Origin: Bradyrhizobium sp. CCBAU 051011
GTDB taxonomy: Bacteria; Pseudomonadota; Alphaproteobacteria; Rhizobiales; Xanthobacteraceae
Direction of reading: 5' to 3'
Length of the DNA stretch: 64,000 nt
NCBI RefSeq assembly: GCF_009930815.1
Contig: NZ_CP022222.1
Location: 8,598,501 to 8,662,500, forward strand
Shown one piece after another: positions 3,118 through 52,749 of this stretch. The notes under the pieces are model-generated. The model was given only the letters and a program-made list of their open reading frames with translations, ran no database searches and had not been told where the DNA came from. The stretch's first letter is position 1. Each line of letters opens with the position of its first letter. A program made the translations under genes and the position numbers.

Positions 3118-3801
3118 TCAATTCGCCGCGAAGCAATACATCAGCCCGTCGCCGCCGGTGCTCTTCAGGTCGGCCTGTGAGCAGCCGCCATCCGGGCCGC
3201 GCGAGGGGTGCGACGTGTTCCAGGACTTTGACGGCTCATCGTCGCGCAGACCCTTGCGGTCGAAATGGCCGACCATCGCGGCGCCTTGCGTGCTGCTCGT
3301 CCAGTTTTTGCAGGTGCGGTCCTCGCCGGCCGCAAACGCGGTGCCGTCCGCCTGCGATCCCGTCAGCACATCGTGGCGGTTCGGCGAGTCGCCGGCACCG
3401 CTGATGACCTCGCCCTTTTCGGAGAGCGCGGTCTGCTTGGTGAGGTTGTTGCTGGCGCTGTGGAGATCGGCGACGTCCTTGGCGACCACGACGCCCTTGG
3501 CATTCTTCCACGGCCCCTTGCCAATGCGATCGCGCGCATTGACGGCAGGCTGACCGTCGGCGGCCTGCGTCGAGAGATAGGCGCGCCAGGTCTTGCCGCC
3601 CGCGCCAGCTGCCTGCGCTAACGTCTGGCAATGATTGTCGGCGCCGGCGAGCCCGCCGAGATTGCCACCATTGCCGATGCCGTTGCTGGTCAGGAAGAAG
3701 CTGGTATCGGCCGATTGCGCCTGCGCGGGCGCGCTGGCGAGAGCCGATATGGCGGCAAGCGCAAAGCATGCCGGCGAGATGACTCTGACGAAGCTCTTCA
3801 T
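3118..3801 (-). CDS. Exported Cys-containing protein, lectin/endostatin-like fold suspected
   Basis: A 227-aa protein with a signal peptide (residues 1-28, ending APAQAQ). The mature part begins SFFLTSNGIGNGGNLGGL and has a C-terminal CF motif, a pattern seen in secreted proteins annotated lectin-like in Bradyrhizobium. Four Cys (near 58, 164, 207 and 223) could form disulfides. The ribosome site is GGGAGAAACCAG. The fold call is by resemblance only; no ligand is claimed. Confidence 0.6.
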   Translation of the reverse strand: MKSFVRVISPACFALAAISALASAPAQAQSADTSFFLTSNGIGNGGNLGGLAGADNHCQTLAQAAGAGGKTWRAYLSTQAADGQPAVNARDRIGKGPWKNAKGVVVAKDVADLHSASNNLTKQTALSEKGEVISGAGDSPNRHDVLTGSQADGTAFAAGEDRTCKNWTSSTQGAAMVGHFDRKGLRDDEPSKSWNTSHPSRGPDGGCSQADLKSTGGDGLMYCFAAN

Positions 3802-3890
3802 CTGGTTTCTCCCTTTTGTTTTTGGTTCGTTGTCATCAACACGTCGTGGCAGGCATTATTCCGGCCTGAGATCAAGCTGGCATCCCGCAA

Positions 3891-3925
3891 AGAAAAAGGC
3901 GCCGCGGAACGAACCGCAGCGCCTT
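3891..3925 (-). terminator. Terminator of the Tim44-like gene
   Basis: Read on the minus strand, GAAGGCGCTGCGG and CCGCGGCGCCTT pair around a short loop, followed by TTTTCTTT. It lies ~20 bp past the stop codon. Confidence 0.7.
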
Positions 3926-3944
3926 CGTCATGATGTTCGGGCGA

Positions 3945-4934
3945 TTAGCTGGTCTGTTGGATCGCCGAGAGTTCCCAATCGCTGCCGCGACGACGGGCGA
4001 AGGTCCAGACCTCGGTGGCTTCGGTCGGGGTTTCGCTGCCCGCAACCAGACGGCCGGTGGTGCGCTCCAGGGTCTTGTCGACCAGCGAGAACCGCATCGC
4101 CACGCTGGCGTAGTCGGTTTCGCCTTCGCGCCAAGCTTCCGCGAGGTCGCCCTGCAACAGCTTGACGTCGGACACCTTGTTGACGTCGTTGTTGGCCTTG
4201 TTCGCTTCGAGATCCTTGGAGAAGTAGGACACCATCTCCGGCGTCGCCAACGTATGAAGCTTTGCGACGTCCTCGTTCGACCACGCGGCCTGGACTTCGC
4301 CGAGCAGACGCTCGAAGGCCTCATAATCGGCCGGCTGGATTTCCAGCGCCGGCTGGCTCGATCCCAGCCCAAAGCCGCCCAGTCCGGAGCGGAAGCTGCT
4401 CTGAGCACCGGGGCCTTCGGCAGGCCCACCGGGGGCCGGCCCGTTCGCGTAGGCGGACGCCGGCGTATGGCGACGCTGCCACCACGACATTGCCAGCCGC
4501 ACCACGATCACGATCAGGGCGATCTGCAGCAGGAGGCCGATAATCGACGATAGGCCGCCGAGGCCGGAGAACAATCCACCGCCGAACAGCATGCCAAGCA
4601 GGCCGGCGCCAAGGAAGCCCGCGGCGAGACCGCCAAGCATGCCCATGCCGGGCCGGTTGAAGAAGCCGCCCTTATTGGCCGCGCCGGCAGCCGCCGGTGC
4701 GCCCACTCCGGGCGTGCCCGGCTGGGTAAAGGTACGGTTCATGGGTTGCGCCGTGCCCGGAGCGGTGGTCGTGCTCGGTGGCGCAGAATAGGTCTTCGAT
4801 CCCCGCGAACCCGAGCTGCTGCCGCCGCCAACGCGGGCGTCAGCCGCCGAGATCGTGATCGCCAGGGGAACCGCCACCGACAGGACAATGGCGAAAGCCC
4901 TTACAATTCCGCGCGCAGTCTGCGTGAAATTCAT
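3945..4934 (-). CDS. Tim44 domain-containing inner-membrane protein
   Basis: A 329-aa protein. An N-terminal signal or anchor is followed by a low-complexity Ser/Gly/Pro/Thr region, a Gly/Leu/Phe-rich hydrophobic stretch, and a second membrane segment ending RLAMSWWQRR. The C-terminal ~150 residues form the Tim44-like domain (EAFERLLGEVQAAWSNEDVA). The start is the Met after GAGGAAAAAGAT. Bacterial Tim44-like (TimA) proteins are membrane-associated; their role is poorly defined. It lies downstream of, and in the same direction as, cckA, with a 168-bp gap. Confidence 0.85.
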   Translation of the reverse strand: MNFTQTARGIVRAFAIVLSVAVPLAITISAADARVGGGSSSGSRGSKTYSAPPSTTTAPGTAQPMNRTFTQPGTPGVGAPAAAGAANKGGFFNRPGMGMLGGLAAGFLGAGLLGMLFGGGLFSGLGGLSSIIGLLLQIALIVIVVRLAMSWWQRRHTPASAYANGPAPGGPAEGPGAQSSFRSGLGGFGLGSSQPALEIQPADYEAFERLLGEVQAAWSNEDVAKLHTLATPEMVSYFSKDLEANKANNDVNKVSDVKLLQGDLAEAWREGETDYASVAMRFSLVDKTLERTTGRLVAGSETPTEATEVWTFARRRGSDWELSAIQQTS

Positions 4935-5102
4935 ATCTTTTTCCTCATTCCCCTCCATGGGGAAGTGCACCTAAGATGGGCAGAGCCACCCAAAAGTGAA
5001 GCAAATATCAGGAACTACGGCTGCGGCCCTCAGTCGCGGGGATGTGACGATTTGGCCGTGAACTCCGCATTCACCATGCGCAAGCAGGCTTTCGCTAGGC
5101 TT

Positions 5103-7670
5103 TTACGTGGCCGTCATCGTCTCCTTGACCTTTTCCACCAGCGCGCTAAGCGCGAACGGTTTTGGCAGGAAGGCGAACTGCTCGTTTTCCGGCAGGCTCT
5201 TGTCGAAGGCCTCTTCGGCGTAGCCGGAGACGAAGATGATCTTGAGGTTCGGGTTGCGCTTGCGCATTTCGCGCAACAGCGTCGGGCCGTCCATTTCCGG
5301 CATCACGACATCGGAGACAACGAGATCGACGGCGCCGTCCTTTTCGTCGAGCGCCTCCATTGCCTCGATGCCGTTGGAGGCTTCGATCACGCTGTAGCCG
5401 CGCGAACGCAGGCCGCGCGCGTTCAGCGAGCGCAGGCCGTCCTCGTCCTCCACCAGCAGGATGGTGCCCTGCCCGGTCAGATCGGGCCGCGGCTTCGGCG
5501 GCTCGGCCGCGCCTTCCCTGGCCGCGCCATTAGTGGCCGCCGCCTCCGGCTGCGCTTCCAGTTCGGGCCGGTGACGCGGCAGGAAGATGCGGAACGTGGT
5601 GCCTTCGCCGGGCGTGGAGTCGACATAGACGAAGCCGCCGGTCTGCTTGACGATGCCGTAGACCGTCGAGAGACCGAGCCCGGTGCCCTTGCCGACTTCC
5701 TTGGTCGAGAAGAACGGCTCGAAAATCTTGTCGACGATGTCGGGTGGGATTCCGGTGCCGGTGTCGGAGATGTCGATCCGCACGTAATCGGCGTCCGGCA
5801 TGCCCTTGTGCGAGAGCTGCGCGGCTTCGTCCGCCGTCACATTGGCGGTCCGCACCGTCAGCTTGCCGCCATCGGGCATCGCGTCGCGCGCGTTGACCGC
5901 GAGATTGACGACGACCTGCTCGAACTGCGAGACGTCGACCTTGACCGGCCAGAGGTCGCGGCCATGCACGAGGTCGAGCTTGACCTTTTCGCCGATCAGC
6001 CGCCGCAGCAGCATGGTGAGATCGGAAAGCGCGTCGCCGAGGTCGAGCACCTGCGGCCGCAGCGTCTGGCGGCGCGAGAACGCGAGCAGTTGCCGCACCA
6101 GCGTCGCGGCGCGGGTCGCGTTCTGCTTGATCTGCATGATGTCCTGGAACGACGGATCGGTCGGCTTGTGCGCATTCAACAGGAAGTCGTTCGCCATCAT
6201 GATGGCGGAGAGCACGTTGTTGAAATCGTGCGCGATGCCGCCGGCGAGCTGGCCGACCATGTCCATCTTTTGCGACTGGTTGATCTGGTTTTCCAGCGTG
6301 CGCCGCTCGGTGGTCTCCAACAGGTAGACGATCGCGGCCTCGGTGTCGCGCTCGTCCTCCTCGACCGCGGTGACGAAGAACTGCCCCCAGCGCTCCTTGG
6401 CGCCGTCGAGCATGGCCTCGACGGGCGCGATGTCGCCCTGCCCTTCGGCGGCCTGGTTGATCGCCGCGATCAAAAGGCCGCGGTCGCGCGCATTCACGGT
6501 GCGGAAGATCGACTTGTTGGCCGCACCATCAGGGCTGAGATTCTGGGCCAGCTTGGCGAAGCGGGCATTGGCGCGGACGACAGCGCCGCCGCGGTCCACC
6601 GTCGCAATCGCCATCGGCGTATGGTCGAAGAACCGCATGAAGCGGACTTCGGCGGCGCGCTCGGGGTCGGAATGTTCGTCGCGCGCGCGGCTGATCACCA
6701 GCGTGCGCGACGAGCCCGGTGAGCCGTCGGCGCCGAAGGCGAGCTTGTGATAGAGCCGCACCGGCATGGTCTTGCCGCCGCGCATGCGCAGGTCGATGTC
6801 GAACACTTCGGTTTTGACTTCGCCCGGCACCGCCACGATCGAGGTCAGAAGCGACGCGCCGTCGCCGGAGACGATATCGGAGAGCTTCAGCCCGCCGGAC
6901 CCGATCTCGGCGAGATCGTAATCCAGCCAGTTCGCCAGCGTGGCGTTGACATAGATGACGTCGCCGGCCGGATTGACCGAGAAGAAGCCGCATGGCGCGT
7001 GGTCGAGATATTCGATCGCATGCTGCAGCTCCCGGAACACATCCTCCTGGCGCTCGCGGTCCCGCGTGATGTCGGCGATCGACCACACCGCATATTTGGC
7101 TTCGCGCTTGTTCTGGCCGAGCGGCCGCACCCGCATCCGCAGCCAGCGGCCCTGCGCACCGTCGGAGCCGGCGATGCGGACCTCCTCCTGCTGCCGCTTG
7201 CCTTCGCGGGCGGCCTTGAGCAGGCGGAATACGGCCTCCGAGACGTCGGGATTGCCGATGAAGACACGCTCGACCGGCCGCACGTCCTGCCGGCTCGCGG
7301 CCCCGGTCAGCGCCAGATAGGCGGCGTTGGAATAGACCACGTGGCCCTTGGGGTCGGTTACCGCCAGCCCGTCATGGGCGTGATCGGCGATACGGCTCAT
7401 TACGGGGTCGTCGGAGGTGCGGTCCATGAAACGGACGATGCCGGCGGCAAAGGCGAACAGGTTGAACAGGCCGACCATGGCGAGCAACGCCAGCACACCC
7501 AGGATATAGGGCTGGGCCTGGGCTCGGCCGATGGTCATCAGCGCGACCGCCACCGCCACAATGCCGGCGGCCACCAGCAGCACCAGCATGATGCTACCTC
7601 CCCGCCGCGCCGGTTCGTGGGCCGCGAAGGGCTCGGTAGGCGGACGGCGGCTGTCGGTTTCGGCGGTCAT
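5103..7670 (-). CDS. cckA: CckA-type hybrid sensor histidine kinase
   Basis: An 855-aa protein. Two membrane segments lie within the first ~85 residues, then three PAS regions (about 90-160, 215-290, 345-430). The HisKA domain has GGIAHDFNN (His481), and the HATPase domain has N-box [13 protein letters not shown] and G-boxes DTGTGIP and [11 protein letters not shown]-terminal receiver has phosphoacceptor Asp787 ([10 protein letters not shown]). This layout is that of CckA, which in Caulobacter phosphorylates CtrA and CpdR through ChpT. A GTG start at 7718 with AGGAGG only 3 nt away is an alternative. Its place after flhB fits the CtrA sites found in this locus. Confidence 0.9.
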
Positions 7671-44316: not shown

Positions 44317-46311
44317 TTAGCGCAGGAGCTGCAGCACGCTCTGCTGGCTCTGGTTGGCCAGCGCCAGCGCGGACACCGCGATCGACTGACGGGTCGACAG
44401 CGCCTGGCTGTTCGCCGCTTCCTCGTTGGTGTCGGCCAGCGTCAGGTTCGACGAGCCGGTCTGCAGCACGTTGATCAGGTTCTTCGAGAAGTCCTGACGG
44501 ATCTGCACGATCGACAGGTTCGAACCGAAGGCCGAAGCCTGCGAGCGAAGCGTAGTCGATGCGCCGTTCAGCGCCGTCACGATGTCGTTGATCGCAGCGT
44601 TGTCCTTGAAGGCGCCCGAACTCAGGACGTCGAGGCCGAGGCCGGCCGGGTTGAAGTTCACACCCTGGATGCTCAGCGTGGACTTGCCGGTTTCGTTGAA
44701 CGTCAGCTTGAGAGTGTCACCCCCGAGCAGGTTGATGCCGTTGAAGGACGCATCCTGCGCGGTGGTGGTGATCTGATTGATGATGTTGTTGTACTGGATG
44801 ACCAGGTTGTCACGGGTCAGTTTGGCATCTGGATCAACAACCGGAGCCGGAGCCGTGGTGCCGGCGGCGAACGCCTGGCCGGCGCCAACCGCGGAACCGG
44901 TGATCGCACCGATCGTGGCCGAAGCCGCTTCGTTCGTCGTGGTGATCGTCAGCTTGCCGGACACGAAAGTGGCCTGCAGGTTGTTGGCGGCGAGAGCCTC
45001 GTTCAGCTCGTTTAGCGAGGAGACACGGCCGGGAGCCTCGCCGAACACGATGTCGGTGGCAACACCGCCGCCGGTCGCAGCGATCCTCAGGGTCTTGCCT
45101 TCTAGCACGCCCGGGACTTCCGTGCGAGCCTGCGTCACGCCGCCTGGCAGACCGAGCGCGGTGAGAGCTGCAGCGTTGCTGCTGGTCAGCGTCAGGTCGC
45201 TCAGCGTACCGGTGTTCAGCGTGATCTGGCCGCCGGTGATCGTCGAGGCCGTCGACGAGCCGGTCAGACCGTCGATCTTCGCCAGCAGGCCGGTGACGTC
45301 GCTGTCGATCTTGATTTGGTTCGGATCGTTGCCGATCGTGTTCGCGGCCACGAAGGTCAGCGTCCTGCCGTTGACGGTGATGGTGTCACCGACCGCGAAG
45401 GCGTTCGACAGCGAAGGAGCCGTGCCGTCGCCGACGCTCAGCTTGGTGGTACCGGCCAGAGCACCGGCCGTCAGGGCGCCACCGCCACGAGTGGCGGTGC
45501 TTTGAGCGACAGTGTTGATTTCGAGCGCGACGGCCGCGGTACCGGTCACGACGAGGTCGGCGGCCGTACCGGACCTCAGGGTGATGATGCCGCCCGTTGC
45601 TGTCGAGGCGTTGGCCGGGGTCGTGTTGCCCGACAGGGAGTCGATCGCTGTCATCAAATCGCTCAGCGAGGTATCGACACCCATCGTATAGGCGTTGCCC
45701 GAACCGACGAGGCCATTCGCGCCCGCCTGGAACGTGATCGTCTTGCCGTTGACGACCAGCGTGTCGTTAGCAGCAACCGCAACGGTGAGTTGGGACAGCA
45801 GCGACGAGGGGGTCGCGTTGACCGGGCCGGCCGTCTGGAGCTGGCCGCCCGGGGTAGTTACCGTGGTGCTGGTATACGCACCGCGCTGCGGAGCTGAAGC
45901 ACCGGTGAACGTGGCGTTGGTCGGTGCCTGATCGGCGACCAGATTGTCGGCCGTTGCGCCGTCGATCACGACGGATGTGAACGACGACTTGGTCGAGTAA
46001 CCGACCGTCGTCTGCAGCGCCTGATTGGCGACAGATTTGGCGGAGTCAACGAGCTTCTGCAGCGAGGTGATGCCGGTGTTGGCGGCCTGCAGGACCTGCA
46101 CGCCGTTGCCGATGCCGTCGAGCAGATTGTTGATGTCGCCGGCGCGCGCATCGAGCGAAGCCGCGGTGAAGTAGTTGGTGGGGTTATCGAGGGCCGTGTT
46201 GACCTTCTTGCCGGTGGCAAGGCGATTCTGCGTGGTGGCGAGCAGATCGGCGGTCGACTGCAGCGAGAGGAGGTTCTGGCGAACCGAAGCCGAGAGAACA
46301 ATACCGGACAT
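44317..46311 (-). CDS. fliC: Flagellin (large, thick-filament type)
   Basis: A 664-aa protein. The N-terminal D0/D1 has SVRQNLLSLQSTADLLATTQ and NRLATGKKVNTALDNPTNYF; the C-terminal D1/D0 includes FGSNLSIVQIRQDFSKNLIN and SALALANQSQQSVLQLLR. The middle (~110-490) is a variable surface region with two copies of a beta-rich module (169-270, 298-390) also found in FlgL and FlgE. The size fits the ~65-kDa flagellins of the bradyrhizobial subpolar flagellum. A single copy is present here, between flaF and flbT. Ribosome site AGAAAGGTATGAAAG. Confidence 0.95.
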   Translation of the reverse strand: MSGIVLSASVRQNLLSLQSTADLLATTQNRLATGKKVNTALDNPTNYFTAASLDARAGDINNLLDGIGNGVQVLQAANTGITSLQKLVDSAKSVANQALQTTVGYSTKSSFTSVVIDGATADNLVADQAPTNATFTGASAPQRGAYTSTTVTTPGGQLQTAGPVNATPSSLLSQLTVAVAANDTLVVNGKTITFQAGANGLVGSGNAYTMGVDTSLSDLMTAIDSLSGNTTPANASTATGGIITLRSGTAADLVVTGTAAVALEINTVAQSTATRGGGALTAGALAGTTKLSVGDGTAPSLSNAFAVGDTITVNGRTLTFVAANTIGNDPNQIKIDSDVTGLLAKIDGLTGSSTASTITGGQITLNTGTLSDLTLTSSNAAALTALGLPGGVTQARTEVPGVLEGKTLRIAATGGGVATDIVFGEAPGRVSSLNELNEALAANNLQATFVSGKLTITTTNEAASATIGAITGSAVGAGQAFAAGTTAPAPVVDPDAKLTRDNLVIQYNNIINQITTTAQDASFNGINLLGGDTLKLTFNETGKSTLSIQGVNFNPAGLGLDVLSSGAFKDNAAINDIVTALNGASTTLRSQASAFGSNLSIVQIRQDFSKNLINVLQTGSSNLTLADTNEEAANSQALSTRQSIAVSALALANQSQQSVLQLLR
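45142..45420 (-). repeat. Shared beta module, flagellin copy 2
   Basis: Flagellin residues 298-390: FAVGDTITVNGRTLTFVA, then LLAKIDGLTGSSTASTITGG and SSNAAALTALG. Lines up residue by residue with FlgL 339-435 and FlgE 239-337. Confidence 0.85.
45502..45807 (-). repeat. Shared beta module, flagellin copy 1
   Basis: Flagellin residues 169-270: VAANDTLVVNGKTITFQA, then LMTAIDSLSGNTTPANASTA and TGGIITLRSGTAADLVVTG. The most divergent of the four copies but with the same order of blocks. Confidence 0.7.
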
Positions 46312-46343
46312 CTTTCATACCTTTCTGGTGTGAAATAAAGAAC

Positions 46344-46381
46344 GAGCCATGATTCCCAACCTCTCGATTGGGCGACGGCTC
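46344..46381 (-). promoter_or_regulatory. Two-step hairpin in the flagellin leader
   Basis: The outer stem GAGCC/GGCTC (46344-46348 with 46377-46381) and inner stem CCCAA/TTGGG (46355-46359 with 46368-46372) lie 33-70 nt before the flagellin ATG, so they would be in the 5' UTR. FlbT in Caulobacter binds flagellin mRNA leaders; this is a candidate target for the adjacent flbT product. Confidence 0.45.
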
Positions 46382-46535
46382 ACTCTGAAACCAAGTCTCT
46401 AAGAAAAAATGAATTTGGTCGGATAAGGAGCGCCGGAAGACGTCGAAATTGAAATTAGTTCGGCGCGCGAACGGGCTTCCGTATTCTTACTGGTGAGACG
46501 CGGAAAAGCCCCGTCAAATGGGCACAACTCGCATC

Positions 46536-46551
46536 TTCACCATTGGTTAAC
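46536..46551 (+). promoter_or_regulatory. Near-consensus CtrA box upstream of flbT
   Basis: TTCA-CCATTGG-TTAAC, one mismatch from TTAA-N7-TTAAC, 73-88 bp before the flbT ATG. Could serve flbT or, at ~225 bp, flagellin. Confidence 0.4.
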
Positions 46552-46623
46552 CATCATCGGGAAGGATGCCGAATCAGCCGGCGGGCACGACAACGCGCGA
46601 AAAGCGCCAATGGGAGAACAGGC

Positions 46624-47052
46624 ATGGCCTTGAAAGTCGAGCTCAAACCGCACGAGCGAATCATCATCGGCGCCTGCGTGGTCACCAACACCGATCAGCG
46701 CGCCAGGCTGTTGATCGACGGTGACAGGATTCCAATCCTGCGCGAGAAGGACATTCTCACCCCGGAGACCGCCGATACGCCGGCCAAGCTGGTCTATCTT
46801 GCGGTGCAGCTCATGTACCTGTCGCCGGACCCGATGGCCCACCACCCGACCTATTTCAGCCTGGTCCGCGACATCCTCACGACAATGCCGAGTGCATGGC
46901 CTTTCATCGAGGGCATCAACAACTTCACCCTAAACGGCGATCTCTATCATGCGCTCAAGGAAGCGAAGAAATTGATCGGCCATGAGGAGCAGATCCTGGA
47001 AAACGCCCGGAAAATGCAATCGCTCGACCAGCCCGATCGCAAGTCAGCATAA
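46624..47052 (+). CDS. flbT: Flagellin mRNA regulator FlbT
   Basis: A 142-aa protein. MALKVELKPHERIIIGACVV, FLREKDILTPE-like IPILREKDILTPETADTPAK and YLAVQLMYLSP are the FlbT signature. FlbT binds flagellin mRNA 5' leaders, acting post-transcriptionally; sign of control differs between species. Start after GGGAGAACAGGC. Divergent from flagellin, convergent with flgL across a shared terminator. Confidence 0.93.
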   Translation: MALKVELKPHERIIIGACVVTNTDQRARLLIDGDRIPILREKDILTPETADTPAKLVYLAVQLMYLSPDPMAHHPTYFSLVRDILTTMPSAWPFIEGINNFTLNGDLYHALKEAKKLIGHEEQILENARKMQSLDQPDRKSA

Positions 47053-47073
47053 TCGTCACTCGCATCTCAAAAG

Positions 47074-47099
47074 AAAAAGGCCTCCGTAAGGAGGCTTTT
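47074..47099. terminator. Bidirectional flbT/flgL terminator
   Basis: AAAAAGGCCTCC-GTAA-GGAGGCTTTT, a stem with A-rich and T-rich flanks between convergent flbT and flgL. Confidence 0.85.
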
Positions 47100-47124
47100 G
47101 TCGTTGGAGTGAACCGGCGCGCGA

Positions 47125-49002
47125 TCAGATCGGCAGGAACTTGGTCAACGTGGTCTGGTAGAGCATCGACGTGGTTTGATACGAGGCCTGCAGACTGGTC
47201 TGCAGTGCCAGGATCTTGGTCGCCACCTCGTCCTGGTTGATGCCTTCGATCTGGTCGAGCATGGTCTGCGCCATGCCCTTGAGCTGGGTCTGGCGGTCGG
47301 TCGAAGCCTTGATGGCGTTCTGCGCGCCGGCGAACTCCGCCTGCATGTCCTGAATCGATTGCTGACCGTTCTGCGGCGCCAGGTTCGCCGAAATCCGCTG
47401 CTGCAGCGCGTTCACCTGCGCCTTCGAGTTCGGATTGGCGGCATTGGTCGTGACCGCGGAATACACCGCGATGTTCTGCAACTGATAGCGCAGCGCCTGC
47501 TCGTTGGCGCGCGCGCCATACTGCACCGTGATCGACTGGTCGATGCGCGCGATCGCGGTGCCGCGTGCCGGATCATTACCGACTTCGCCCGTGTACCAAG
47601 AGACGGTGTTGGCGGATGTGCCGCCGATCAGATTGGTGGCCGTGGCAAAAGGAGGGCCGTTGACACGCAGCGGCGCCGGATTTGCGCTCGCAGCGGCGCT
47701 GAAGCCCAGTGCTGCGAACGCGGCCGCGTTCGAACTTGAAACCGTCAGGCTCGCGCCGTCAGCGCCGTGCAGCGCAATCACGCCGCCAGTGACGGTCGAC
47801 GGCGTCGTGGCGCCGGAGATCGAATCGATCTTGGCCAGCAAGGCCTGAACATTGTCGGTGATGTTGAGCTGGTTGCCGGTCGCGCCCGACGCGACGAAGG
47901 TGATGGGTGTACCGTTGACCGTGATGGTGTCGCCGGCCGCAAAGCTCGCAGCCAGCGAATCCGTTCCCGCCGCGCCGGACAGCAGCGTGGCGCCGGTGAT
48001 CGGCGCCGGCACCGCGGCCTGATTGTTGACCGCACTTCCCGTAACCGTCGCGGACGGATTGAAGAAATTGTCTGATGCCGCAATGGCGGACGCGGCAACC
48101 AGCGAGGTGTCGCTCAACGTCTGGATCGAAGACGTCAATGCAGCCTGCAGGTTCGCGGTGGTTGCGACCGTATCAGCGCCGATCAGGAACGAACCCGCAG
48201 GCGGCGGATTGGTGGTCGTCGCGGTCAGCGCGATCGACTCGGTGGTGCCATCGGGCAGATTGAAGCTGAACGTGATCTTGTCGCCATTGTTCGGATTGAC
48301 GGCGCCGAGATCGACGGTGACGGCCGGCGGCACGCCGGTCGGCTGCGTCACGGTCGCTCCCGTCAGCGATGAGCTGATCGGACCAAGCTTCAGCCCGAAT
48401 GACGAACCATCCTCGGCCAGGCTGGTCACCGTGGTCGTCAACGGCGGCGAGGCGACCGTCAGATGCGCCATGTTGCTGACGCCCTGATCGGCCTGGCGGC
48501 GTTCGTTGATCAATTGCTTCAACCCGGCCTGGGTTCCCACGCCGTCGAGCATGACGTCCGCCGGCACCGTCGCTGATGTGTCGGTGGTGCGTCCGGAAAA
48601 CAGATAGCGGTCACCGGTCTGGCTGTTGAGCAGCGACACCGCATTCGAGAACGCCGCCTGCGCCGTGATCTGACCGGAGGTCTGACCGTTGTCGTTGAGC
48701 ACGATGGTCGACGTACTGGCCGCTTTCTTTACCGACGTGCCGATGTCGGTCAATCCCTGCAGCGCAAGGTTGACGACGTTGAGCCTGGTATTGACGTTGG
48801 TCGCGGTATCCTTGAACGCATCGATGCTGCTGACTTGTGCGCGCAAACTAAGCGCAAAGCCGCGATTGGCGCCCTGCCCCGCATAGGTCGTCGAGACCCG
48901 GCCGCTGGCGAGCTGCTGCGTCAGGTCATCGAGTTGCTTGCGGATATTGAGGATCGAGGTCCCGATATAGGATGTTCTGCCGTTAACGCCATCGATCGAC
49001 AT
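47125..49002 (-). CDS. flgL: Hook-filament junction protein FlgL
   Basis: A 625-aa protein, longer than the enteric FlgL (~317 aa). The N-terminus has SYIGTSILNIRKQLDDLTQQ and LASGRVSTTYAG; the C-terminus has EVATKILALQTSLQASYQTT and SMLYQTTLTKFLPI. The extra length is surface insertions, including the module shared with flagellin and FlgE (339-435). It joins filament to hook and is the last gene of flgE-flgK-flgL, 7 bp after flgK. Confidence 0.92.
   Translation of the reverse strand: MSIDGVNGRTSYIGTSILNIRKQLDDLTQQLASGRVSTTYAGQGANRGFALSLRAQVSSIDAFKDTATNVNTRLNVVNLALQGLTDIGTSVKKAASTSTIVLNDNGQTSGQITAQAAFSNAVSLLNSQTGDRYLFSGRTTDTSATVPADVMLDGVGTQAGLKQLINERRQADQGVSNMAHLTVASPPLTTTVTSLAEDGSSFGLKLGPISSSLTGATVTQPTGVPPAVTVDLGAVNPNNGDKITFSFNLPDGTTESIALTATTTNPPPAGSFLIGADTVATTANLQAALTSSIQTLSDTSLVAASAIAASDNFFNPSATVTGSAVNNQAAVPAPITGATLLSGAAGTDSLAASFAAGDTITVNGTPITFVASGATGNQLNITDNVQALLAKIDSISGATTPSTVTGGVIALHGADGASLTVSSSNAAAFAALGFSAAASANPAPLRVNGPPFATATNLIGGTSANTVSWYTGEVGNDPARGTAIARIDQSITVQYGARANEQALRYQLQNIAVYSAVTTNAANPNSKAQVNALQQRISANLAPQNGQQSIQDMQAEFAGAQNAIKASTDRQTQLKGMAQTMLDQIEGINQDEVATKILALQTSLQASYQTTSMLYQTTLTKFLPI
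47698..47988 (-). repeat. Shared beta module in FlgL
   Basis: FlgL residues 339-435: LLSGAAGTDSLAASFAAGDT, then ITVNGTPITFVASG and LLAKIDSISGATTPSTVTGG. A 23-bp stretch at 47912-47934 is identical to 51959-51981 in flgE. Confidence 0.88.
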
Positions 49003-49009
49003 GAAACCC

Positions 49010-50890
49010 TCACATGGCCTGGATCAGCGTGTCGTACATCTGCTTGATGGACGACATGACGCGCGCATTGGCGGAATAGGCGTTCTGCAGCGCGAGCAGA
49101 TGCGCCATCTCGTCGTCGATATTGACGCCCGAGGCATCGGTCACCTTCTTCTGCAGGGTATTCAACACCACGGACTGACCATCGGCGAGTTGCTTGGCGG
49201 CGGTTGCGGCCTCGCCCTGCTGGCTGATGAACTGCTTGGCGAAGTTGGTCAGCGTGCCGGTGAAGGGAGCGCCGGTGGTCCCGATGCCGGTCTGCGGCGA
49301 ATAGCGATAGTTCCCCGACTGCAGTTGCGTGAGAACGAAGTCGGCGCGCGTGGTGTCGCCCGAAGGCGTCAACGGGCTGGTGGAAAACACGACGGTGCGC
49401 GAGGGATCGCCGAGCAGCCCTAGATTGACGCTGATACGGCCGGCGAGACCTGTCTGCTGCGAACCATTGGCGGTGATCGCACCGGAAAAGAGACCACCAT
49501 TATCCGTGAACAGTGGAAGCTGTGGGTTGCCGCTGGTGAGCGACGACATGGTCGTGGTGACCGACGCCGCCAGCACGTCCGAGCGATTTGGCGCGCCATC
49601 ATCGAGCACGCGCAGGGTCGATCCCGACGGGTTTGAGAACTGCAGATCGCTCGCCCCTAGCGCGGCGTTGAGCTGGGAGACTACCGATGCCATGCCGCCG
49701 GAAAAATCGATGCCGAGCACCTCATCGTTCGGATCGAGCGTCGCGGTATTGCTCAGCGGCAGCACGCTCGGATCGTCGACGCGCACGATCGAGAGATTGC
49801 GCGTGACGCCGGTGGTGTTGTCCTTGTAGCTGACGTGGATGACGTTGCCGGATTGCAGGCCCGTGAGGTCGAGATCGTAGCCGGCCTGCGGCAACGCGGA
49901 CGCCGGAGTAGCCGTGCCGGCCGTCGTCTTGTCCGACAGTGCGCTCGCCATCGACGCCGCAAACTGGTCGATCTGCGCCTGCGCCTTCACCAGCGTGTTG
50001 TCGCGCAGTTCGAGATAGGCAGCGATCTTGCCGGAACGGATCGAGTTGGTCGACACCAGATCGTAGCTGCCGCCGTGCGGGAAATTGATCGTGATGGTGC
50101 CGACGTTGTTCTTGGTCGGATCGGAATTGTACAGCGTGTTGGGCGTCATCGTGCCCTGAGGATTGAAGCTTAGCTGCGCAGCCTCGGTCCCCACCAGTTG
50201 CACGCCGGAGTTCGTGAATACCGTCACCTGATTGAGGTCGTTGACGACCGTCCTGATGTCCATCAGGCTCGATAATTGCGTGATGTATTGATCGCGCTGA
50301 TCCAGCAGCGAGGCCGTCGCCGCGTCGGTCTTGCCGTTGTTCTGGAGCTGATTGTTGATGAACGCGATCTGGGCCATCGCGTTGTTTGCCGTAACAATGG
50401 AGTCGTTGATGCCCATCTCGGCATTGGCGCGCAGGCTCTGAATCCCCTGCGTCGCCGCATTGAGCGTCTGCGCCATCGTCTGCGCGGCGCTGACGGCGCC
50501 GATCCGCGCCGACTGCGAGTCCGGGCTGGTCGACAGGCCCTGAAACGCGGTCAGCAGCTTGTTGAACGAGTCCTCGATGGTGCCGGTTTCGGCCGGATTT
50601 CCGTAAACGTTCTGCAAATTTTGGAGAAAGGTCGAACGGATATCGGCGTAGGCCGCGCCCGAAGTTTCCGTGCGCAATTGGGCCTGCAGATATTGATCGA
50701 GCTGCCGGTCGACGCCGTGGAGCAGAACGCTCGAGCCGTAGTCGCCGGTCACGCCGGCGGACTGGATGATCGACTTCCTGACGTAACCAGGCGTTTCCGC
50801 GTTGGCGACGTTCGATCCGACCAGCGAGATCGCGGCTTGCGTCGCGCGCAGGCCGGACATTGCGGTGGAGAGAGCTTGACTCAAACCCAT
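49010..50890 (-). CDS. flgK: Hook-associated protein FlgK
   Basis: A 626-aa protein. MGLSQALSTAMSGLRATQAA and SLVGSNVANAETPGYVRKS at the N-terminus; DDEMAHLLALQNAYSANARV and IKQMYDTLIQAM at the C-terminus. First hook-filament junction protein. The shared module of FlgL and FlgE is not seen here. It lies 47 bp after flgE. Confidence 0.96.
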   Translation of the reverse strand: MGLSQALSTAMSGLRATQAAISLVGSNVANAETPGYVRKSIIQSAGVTGDYGSSVLLHGVDRQLDQYLQAQLRTETSGAAYADIRSTFLQNLQNVYGNPAETGTIEDSFNKLLTAFQGLSTSPDSQSARIGAVSAAQTMAQTLNAATQGIQSLRANAEMGINDSIVTANNAMAQIAFINNQLQNNGKTDAATASLLDQRDQYITQLSSLMDIRTVVNDLNQVTVFTNSGVQLVGTEAAQLSFNPQGTMTPNTLYNSDPTKNNVGTITINFPHGGSYDLVSTNSIRSGKIAAYLELRDNTLVKAQAQIDQFAASMASALSDKTTAGTATPASALPQAGYDLDLTGLQSGNVIHVSYKDNTTGVTRNLSIVRVDDPSVLPLSNTATLDPNDEVLGIDFSGGMASVVSQLNAALGASDLQFSNPSGSTLRVLDDGAPNRSDVLAASVTTTMSSLTSGNPQLPLFTDNGGLFSGAITANGSQQTGLAGRISVNLGLLGDPSRTVVFSTSPLTPSGDTTRADFVLTQLQSGNYRYSPQTGIGTTGAPFTGTLTNFAKQFISQQGEAATAAKQLADGQSVVLNTLQKKVTDASGVNIDDEMAHLLALQNAYSANARVMSSIKQMYDTLIQAM

Positions 50891-50937
50891 GACTAATTGC
50901 CCATCTCAAATCGCATCGCGAACGGCTCGTCGCGCGA

Positions 50938-52749
50938 TCAGCGCAGCACGTTCAGGAGATCCTGCACCATCGTGTTGGAAGTCGTGATCACCTTGGTGTT
51001 GGCCGAGTAAGCCTGCTGGGTGACGATCAGCTTGGTGAACTCGTCGGCGATATCGGTGTTGGATCCCTCTAGCGACGAGCCGACGATGGTTCCGGCCTTG
51101 CCGAACAGCGCCTGTCCGGATCCGTCGGTGACCTCGAACGCACCGCCGTTGACGCGCTTGAGGAAGTTGGTGCCGTTGAAGGTAGCGACCGAGATTTCGG
51201 CGAGGTCGAGGTTGCGGCCGTTGGAATAGTTGCCGACGATTCGGCCGTTGGTGCCGACGCCGACGGACTGCAACTGGCCGGCCGGGAAGCCGTCCTGCTG
51301 GATCTGGTTGACCTGCACGTTGCCATTGGCGTCCGCGAATTGGGTGACGCCGCCGGTGCCGAAGTTGATGACGGGGCTGCCCAGCGAGACGCCGTTGACG
51401 ACGGCATTGGTGAGCTCCACGGAGGGAATCGCCGGCGTCATCTGGCCCGAGGCGGAGAAGGTAAAATTGGTGTTGACGTTTTGCCACGCGACCTGGGTAC
51501 CGGTTGCGTTGGGGTTGACCTGGTAGAACAGGTTCCAGGTATCGGTATGGCCCGCGCCGAGCGTGGCGCTGTCGACCTTGGCCCAGCGGAACTGCAGGTT
51601 CACCGGCGCGCCCGAGACGTCGTAGGTCGTGACCGCACCTCCCGCTATCGACTCGGCGAGGAACGTCGAATTGTCGTTGCCGACGACCTGGCCGGTGCCG
51701 ACGCCGCCGCCGCCGCCGCGCGTCGCCGTCACGGTGCCGGTAAAGCCGAGCGCAGCCCAAGCTGAGGTGTTCGAACTGGAGACCGAGAGATTGGCTGTGG
51801 TGCCGGAATGCAGCGTGATCGAGCCCGAGGCGATCGTGGACGCGACTGACGTTCCCTGGAGCGCGTCGATCTTGCCCAGCAAGGTTCCGATGTTGTCGTC
51901 GACGTTGATCTGGTTGGCGCCGACGGCGGTGCCCGACGCCATGAAGGTGAGGGTTTGGCCGTTGACCGTGATGGTGTCGCCCGCGAGGAAATTGGTGGAG
52001 ATCGAGTTGGTGCCGGCCGCGCCGTTGAGCAGGGTTGCGGCGGTGTTCGCAACCGACGGCGTCGCTTTGTTGTTCTGAGTGGTGCCGCTTCTGGAGGCGT
52101 CGGTAAAGGGCGCCGCAGGCGTGCCGAGCGCCAGCGGATTACGTCCGGCACTGTATGATCCGGGCACGATCAATTCCGATCCGGGAACGGAAACGTCGTG
52201 CTTGGTCGTCAGCGGATAGCTGGCGAGGTTGGCGCGATAGTCGATCCTGGTGGTTTGCTGCGCCGGCAAGAAGTCGTTCTGGAATCGGAGGACCTGTGGC
52301 GAACTGCCTGATGGGTTGCCGGTGGTCGGGTCGATCGGAACGCCCTGCAGATAATAGCCGGCGCCGTTGACGAGATAGCCGCTCTTGTCGAGCTGGAAGT
52401 CGCCGCGGCGGGTGTAGCGGTCGACGCCGTCGAACACCGGCGTGCCGTCGGTGAAGTTGCCCGGCTTTTGCACCGCGAAGAAGCCGTTGCCGTTGATCGC
52501 CATGAAGGTCGCGACCGAAGCCGTCTGCACGTCGCCCTGCACCGAGTTGGTGGAGCGGGATTGCGTGGTGACGCCACCCGCGAGCTGCGCGGTCGCTGAG
52601 GTCTGCGGAATCAGATCGAGGAAGGAGGTGTCGACGCGCTTGAACGCCGTGGTCTGCGAGTTGGCGATGTTACCCGAGACGTTTTCCAGCGCGTAGGAGT
52701 TGGCGCGGAGGCCGCCGACCGCGGTGGTGAGAGCGCCGAAGATACCCAT
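50938..52749 (-). CDS. flgE: Flagellar hook protein FlgE
   Basis: A 603-aa protein. MGIFGALTTAVGGLRANSYA and NVSGNIANSQTTAFKRVDTS at the N-terminus, EGSNTDIADEFTKLIVTQQA and AYSANTKVITTSNTMVQDLL at the C-terminus. It is larger than enteric FlgE (~400 aa) owing to surface inserts, among them the module shared with flagellin and FlgL (239-337). Start after GGAGAAAATGTC; the frame is open upstream but lacks an initiation site. First gene of flgE-flgK-flgL with a consensus sigma-54 element upstream. Confidence 0.95.
   Translation of the reverse strand: MGIFGALTTAVGGLRANSYALENVSGNIANSQTTAFKRVDTSFLDLIPQTSATAQLAGGVTTQSRSTNSVQGDVQTASVATFMAINGNGFFAVQKPGNFTDGTPVFDGVDRYTRRGDFQLDKSGYLVNGAGYYLQGVPIDPTTGNPSGSSPQVLRFQNDFLPAQQTTRIDYRANLASYPLTTKHDVSVPGSELIVPGSYSAGRNPLALGTPAAPFTDASRSGTTQNNKATPSVANTAATLLNGAAGTNSISTNFLAGDTITVNGQTLTFMASGTAVGANQINVDDNIGTLLGKIDALQGTSVASTIASGSITLHSGTTANLSVSSSNTSAWAALGFTGTVTATRGGGGGVGTGQVVGNDNSTFLAESIAGGAVTTYDVSGAPVNLQFRWAKVDSATLGAGHTDTWNLFYQVNPNATGTQVAWQNVNTNFTFSASGQMTPAIPSVELTNAVVNGVSLGSPVINFGTGGVTQFADANGNVQVNQIQQDGFPAGQLQSVGVGTNGRIVGNYSNGRNLDLAEISVATFNGTNFLKRVNGGAFEVTDGSGQALFGKAGTIVGSSLEGSNTDIADEFTKLIVTQQAYSANTKVITTSNTMVQDLLNVLR
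51739..52035 (-). repeat. Shared beta module in FlgE
   Basis: FlgE residues 239-337: LLNGAAGTNSISTNFLAGDT, then ITVNGQTLTFMASG and SITLHSGTTANLSVSSSNTS. Closest to the FlgL copy at both protein and DNA level. Confidence 0.88.

Follow-up and report, generated by a model that had tools for sequence, protein, structure and literature searches.

The flagellar genes described here lie in a 64,000-nucleotide stretch of the Bradyrhizobium sp. CCBAU 051011 genome (contig NZ_CP022222.1, positions 8,598,501 to 8,662,500), hereafter the window, and three of them, encoding the hook protein FlgE, the hook-filament junction protein FlgL and flagellin, share a unit of about 95 residues that we term the module. 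We consider it quite probable that the module folds on its own as an outer domain of the DUF1522 (PF07482) kind, inserted as a block into each of these three axial proteins and most likely serving as passive structural decoration.

All genes and features of the window described below are on the minus strand. The flagellin gene (44317..46311; 664 amino acids) is an open reading frame with Pfam Flagellin_N and Flagellin_C domains and an above-cut-off match to NCBIfam PRK12688, and it carries two modules. The first, at residues 169-270 (45502..45807), was located by alignment and hidden Markov model (HMM) and matches DUF1522 weakly over its second half, while the second, with its core at residues 298-390 (45142..45456), is 53% identical to the FlgE copy by BLASTP and scores E 2e-41 in an HMM search of the genome with a profile that itself includes this copy. 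The flgL frame (47125..49002; 625 amino acids) is identified through homologues named FlgL by their sources, its matches to NCBIfam FlgL and flagellin families all falling under the cut-off, and its module with linker spans residues 325-442 (47677..48030), the core being residues 339-435 at 47698-47988. The flgE gene (50938..52749; 603 amino acids, ATG at 52749, start MGIF) shows the Pfam domains Flg_bbr_C and FlgE/F/G D1 and has its module at residues 239-337 (51739..52035). A whole-FlgE search indicates that it is the only hook gene of the genome, the further matches being modules and a rod-like gene at 34%.

The original prediction of such a unit, twice in flagellin and once each in FlgL and FlgE, proved to be correct. 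The four segments can be aligned over their whole length, with common points at GDT--VNG, TF, L---ID and G-I-L, and for all six pairs the alignment score exceeds every one of 500 shuffles, which rules out low-complexity chance as the cause of the likeness. The FlgE and FlgL modules are 53% identical, yet outside module and linker these two proteins have no detectable similarity (best E 3.9). Conserved module positions look fold-like, with no enzyme-like set of conserved polar residues. The genome holds six copies in total. Besides the four of the window, a second flagellin gene at 1.946 Mb (G000:C1:1945851-1946513; 665-codon open frame), remote from the flagellar operon, has the same two modules. 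Among the matches listed, the FlgL module of B. lablabi CCBAU 23086 is the nearest (97%). Flagellin residues 392-510 (44782-45138), which follow the second module, have motifs in a similar order and match by profile comparison at 35%; an equivalent segment is also present in module-free flagellins, and it may be a far relative of the module. Profile comparison of FlgL residues 165-325 with the module gave 3.2% and no relative. Pfam matches to FlgL modules at about E 0.001 (GXGXG, DUF1150 and lumazine binding) were judged to be chance.

Structure prediction and comparison with relatives bear out the proposal that the unit is a compact, inserted domain. The FlgL module modelled alone with AlphaFold2 reaches a predicted local distance difference test score (pLDDT) of 96.1 and a predicted template modelling score of 0.90. 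A full-length FlgE model built with 30 close sequences is poor outside about residues 165-490, and within it blocks 221-340 have a mean pLDDT of 86-97 and residues 216-345 tentatively match the outer parts of FliD and flagellins. The FlgE module is an insert that interrupts the D2 domain of the hook protein (residues 162-486; 51292..52266). Sequence searches of solved structures yielded no credible hit (the best, 2n93, had E 0.006 across 42 residues), and a Foldseek search of the FlgL module against PDB gave no match at E <= 0.001. The flagellin copies presumably adopt the same fold, and all copies would face outward in the assembled flagellum. Module-free FlgL proteins, mostly open frames of 500-550 amino acids, run from ...AASA--A-D-FF almost directly into P-RV; in module-bearing FlgL the block, with its linker VNNQAA-PAPI-GAT, sits between these two points. 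Likewise, FlgE of two other families (L144, 497 amino acids; L145, 493 amino acids) is missing the block from the same D2 loop. The L144 locus also has, around 3646-5396, a flagellin region with masked or unknown bases. In FlgE of another family (L146 1408-3231) the module's place holds a different segment (E 0.006, 5 bits) that looks like a diverged copy.

The original suggestion that bradyrhizobial flagellins are annotated with a DUF1522 region that may be this unit was nearly right, in that DUF1522 is a homologous variant with longer loops, although FlgE and FlgL of the window fall short of the Pfam cut-off. At the Pfam gathering cut-off of 25 bits the window flagellin itself is below threshold (16.0 bits), attaining 26.1 bits in a six-frame search only by adding neighbours in frame, and FlgL and FlgE have no match at E <= 1. 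Among module segments generally, 41 of 89 match Pfam DUF1522 at E <= 1 (best 1.7e-7); at E <= 0.1 the matches comprise 14 of 38 FlgE modules (best 2.4e-4) and 3 of 36 FlgL modules (best 0.017), and ten whole proteins of relatives (eight FlgE or FlgL, two flagellins) gave none. For profile-profile comparison we built a DUF1522 profile from 15 copies at 10 loci, all ten being flagellins (open frames of 749-793 amino acids) with two copies each. It gave homology probabilities of 95.9% against the FlgE module and 95.0% against that of FlgL, and both kinds of sequence have the motif order DTITVNG-TITF, LL-AID, AG--TL, ADLSVTG. DUF1522 occurs in tandem and adjoins the module in some flagellins; those of L129 and L161 line up related domains in tandem, first one module and then two DUF1522 copies. 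Because of the same motifs, the profile matches and this side-by-side occurrence, module and DUF1522 are, as judged from sequence, two branches of one family. The branches differ in their homes: in the loci read for this study (see below) our DUF1522 profile at 25 bits finds 18 of 103 flagellins and no FlgE (0/149), FlgL (0/149) or FlgK (0/152), unlike the module, which is present in FlgE and FlgL too. Pfam DUF1522 exceeds its cut-off in 21 of 31 genomes of the genus, at up to 155 bits, four of these, including that of the window, being weakly positive. DUF1522 is the fourth commonest domain in flagellin hypervariable regions in the ranking given in PMC5595980. Like DUF1522, the flagellin copies of the window lie between the flagellin N (13-112) and C (580-663) domains, whereas FlgE and FlgL are other proteins. 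A Flagellin_IN type motif was sought in the four window proteins, with no Pfam match at E <= 1.

The module is widespread in the genus and patchy beyond it (counts include the genome of the window). It is found at E <= 0.001 in 97 of 98 Bradyrhizobium genomes, 38 of the 98 having exactly two matches, and in 52 of 149 genomes and 11 of 41 genera of the family. In the order it is present in at least 18 of 297 genomes and in the class, with a broader profile, in at least 5 of 387, these being lower bounds because the candidates scored in each genome numbered at most 17 and 12, respectively. We read 157 loci (78 and 79 in two sets), chosen for holding the module and some sharing a genome. At 25 bits or more the module is present in 145 of 149 FlgE, 119 of 149 FlgL and 46 of 103 flagellins; 30 FlgL are without it, and 53 flagellins have neither it nor the DUF1522 form. 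FlgK is the constant exception, as had been proposed for the window protein (49010..50890, flanked by flgE and flgL; NCBIfam flgK_ends above cut-off). Its residues 320-560 give 0.3% against the module by profile comparison, and none of 152 FlgK of related loci reaches 25 bits; shuffle tests of the window FlgK gave P 0.03 in two of four cases, a weak signal without support elsewhere.

The further claim that the module decorates hook, junction and filament alike holds in the window and is too strong elsewhere. Two sets of loci show all three genes (n=42 and n=29; flagellins shown at the locus counted; module profile, 25 bits), and the module is in all three at 5/42 and 4/29. It is in FlgE and FlgL with no flagellin shown to have it at 11/42 and 23/29, in FlgE and flagellin with FlgL lacking it at 20/42 and 1/29, in FlgE alone at 5/42 and 1/29, and in flagellin alone at 1/42 and 0/29. 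Copy number varies as well. FlgL of L104 has three modules, and FlgE has two at 24 of 75 loci of one set, one copy of each listed pair being weak. Two Bradyrhizobium genomes (G015, G048) combine a three-module FlgE (L266 202-2931, L268 247-2925) with a two-module FlgL (L259 49-2409, L260 70-2409). The best 120 FlgL-type homologues, a listing that favours many-copy proteins, comprise 80 with three modules (median 879 amino acids) and 40 with two (median 753 amino acids).

Regarding the history of the module, a tree of 105 copies, thinned from 134 (102 columns), interleaves the three genes, with nine changes of gene where the least possible is two. Approximately unbiased (AU) tests did not reject monophyly of the FlgE copies (p 0.091, or 0.069 when four odd rows are dropped), of the FlgL copies (p 0.298, one long row left out) or of the flagellin copies (p 0.058). 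The interleaving speaks against gene-wise monophyly, but the AU tests are not decisive here. A tree of FlgL backbones from which the insert was taken out (45 rows thinned from 152, four far outgroup rows left out) is decisive on one point: module-bearing FlgL do not form one clade (log-likelihood 127.6 lower, p far below 0.001), and adding the four outgroup rows (63 rows) forces at least three changes, so that on these trees FlgL has acquired, or lost, the block repeatedly. Between the two main groups of module-bearing FlgL the linkers are nearly identical, and thus one old gain with clean losses may account for the pattern. The FlgL modules of L100, L101 and L103 are FlgE-like (same lineage) in their first part and like other FlgL copies in their second, and are possibly an old recombinant.

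Surface decoration fits these observations because the module is inserted in outer regions, is absent from some relatives and varies in copy number. The insertion places are a D2 loop of FlgE, the middle region of FlgL and the flagellin hypervariable region. All lie outside the helical ends from which the axis is built, and gain, loss and tandem multiplication could therefore occur without breaking assembly. Such a decoration may thicken the tube, provide contacts between neighbouring subunits or present a surface to the medium, hosts or phages, the originally suggested adhesive and glycan-bearing roles being putative; across the family it is an almost constant part of FlgE and a patchy one of FlgL and flagellin.

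A more specific arrangement, which we regard as rather unlikely, is that module copies on hook and filament associate into an outer layer, either sheath or screw-like. In other flagellins, including one of Sinorhizobium meliloti, sheaths or a screw-like surface arise from dimers of outer domains (PMC8931119), and the same domain on neighbouring subunits would allow such packing, so that sheath-like packing on filaments is possible by analogy. However, at most three-gene loci either FlgL or the flagellins shown at the locus lack the module, and since FlgK has none and lies between FlgE and FlgL there would be no unbroken module layer from hook to filament.

Similarly doubtful is an origin of the domain in phage tails (or its passage to them) with a role in adhesion or phage interplay on the flagellar surface. 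A tblastn search matched 19 of 50,697 phage records, over 37-62 residues (31-53% of the query) at 46.8-60.5% identity. These sequence relatives are tail tube proteins and others from Rhodobacter and Rhizobium phages and cover mostly the first two thirds of the module; they are, however, different proteins of another machine, and the matches are partial and distant. DUF1522 is also listed for an Acinetobacter phage gene (E 1.7e-3) in PMC6401600. The direction of transfer is unreadable from such matches, and the fold seems to occur in several kinds of tube protein. The hook protein of a distant alphaproteobacterium (L285 94-2235, G620) has, in the phage-like form, three relatives of the domain in tandem that seem to have expanded separately, and module relatives occur in proteins looking phage-derived in two alphaproteobacterial genomes (L284 562-1905, G606; L286 1-2238, G668). 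A broader conjecture, likewise rather unlikely, is that of a mobile surface domain moving between the genes of tube-like machines, here among hook, junction, filament and phage tail genes, which in Bradyrhizobium entered FlgL repeatedly at one site and multiplied; much of the flagellar outer face would then be one interchangeable part, perhaps under pressure from flagellum-using phages.

Plain paralogy, in which the common ancestor of FlgE, FlgL and flagellin already had the domain and nothing was transplanted, is very unlikely. Axial proteins share their terminal regions by descent (FlgE and FlgK resemble each other at their ends, with E 3e-5 to 8e-5), the module is near-universal in FlgE of the loci read, and L146 has its possible diverged form in the same place. 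Such descent is nevertheless hard to reconcile with a module that is 53% identical between two proteins otherwise unlike each other, with its absence from L144, L145 and the 30 module-free FlgL, and with its consistent absence from FlgK.

Least probable of all is recent gene conversion or copying among flgE, flgL and fliC of this genome, which would keep the copies alike and had been raised by a 23-bp run in flgL (47912-47934) that is identical to flgE 51959-51981 and encodes GDTITVNG: although this run has P 0.007 for the window pair under synonymous resampling and 4 of 42 FlgE/FlgL pairs (window, L097, L104 copy 3 and L120) have P <= 0.01, same-genome pairs are no more alike than re-paired ones at four-fold sites (0.511 versus 0.506, P 0.32, 21 genomes of one lineage; 0.583 versus 0.568, P 0.11, 15 genomes of the other), and both protein identity and longest run are slightly lower within genomes in both lineages. 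At the sequence level the run is a conserved GDTITVNG motif in shared codons, with no sign of conversion.

The preferred reading, an inserted outer domain of the DUF1522 kind, has partial precedents in DUF1522 itself and in the folds that axial proteins have in common. It is established that flagellin outer domains vary and that their folds recur in cap and junction proteins; the shared outer-domain folds of FliD, FlgK, FlgL and flagellin have sequences hardly alike (14-17% identity; PMC5072837), unlike the domain described here, which three genes share at about 50% identity. The outer domain of H. pylori FlgE2 (5npy 204-343) is 9% identical to the module. Giant flagellins of Oceanospirillales, according to the account in PMC6248924, have a duplicated inner region, and tandem duplication of an outer region goes with thick filaments, an arrangement described there for flagellin. 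As far as we have searched, the occurrence of one sequence family in hook, junction and filament alike is new, and so is the finding that it was repeatedly gained or lost; no description of this sharing was found in the open-access literature, subscription journals being mostly outside that scope. Three axial proteins of one flagellum have one sequence-recognisable domain that is inserted as a block, occurs in tandem copies and has been repeatedly gained or lost. Outer decorations of a kind already known from flagellins are reused across different parts of one machine, and DUF1522 gains a likely fold, a broader range of host proteins and a connection by sequence to proteins of phage tails.
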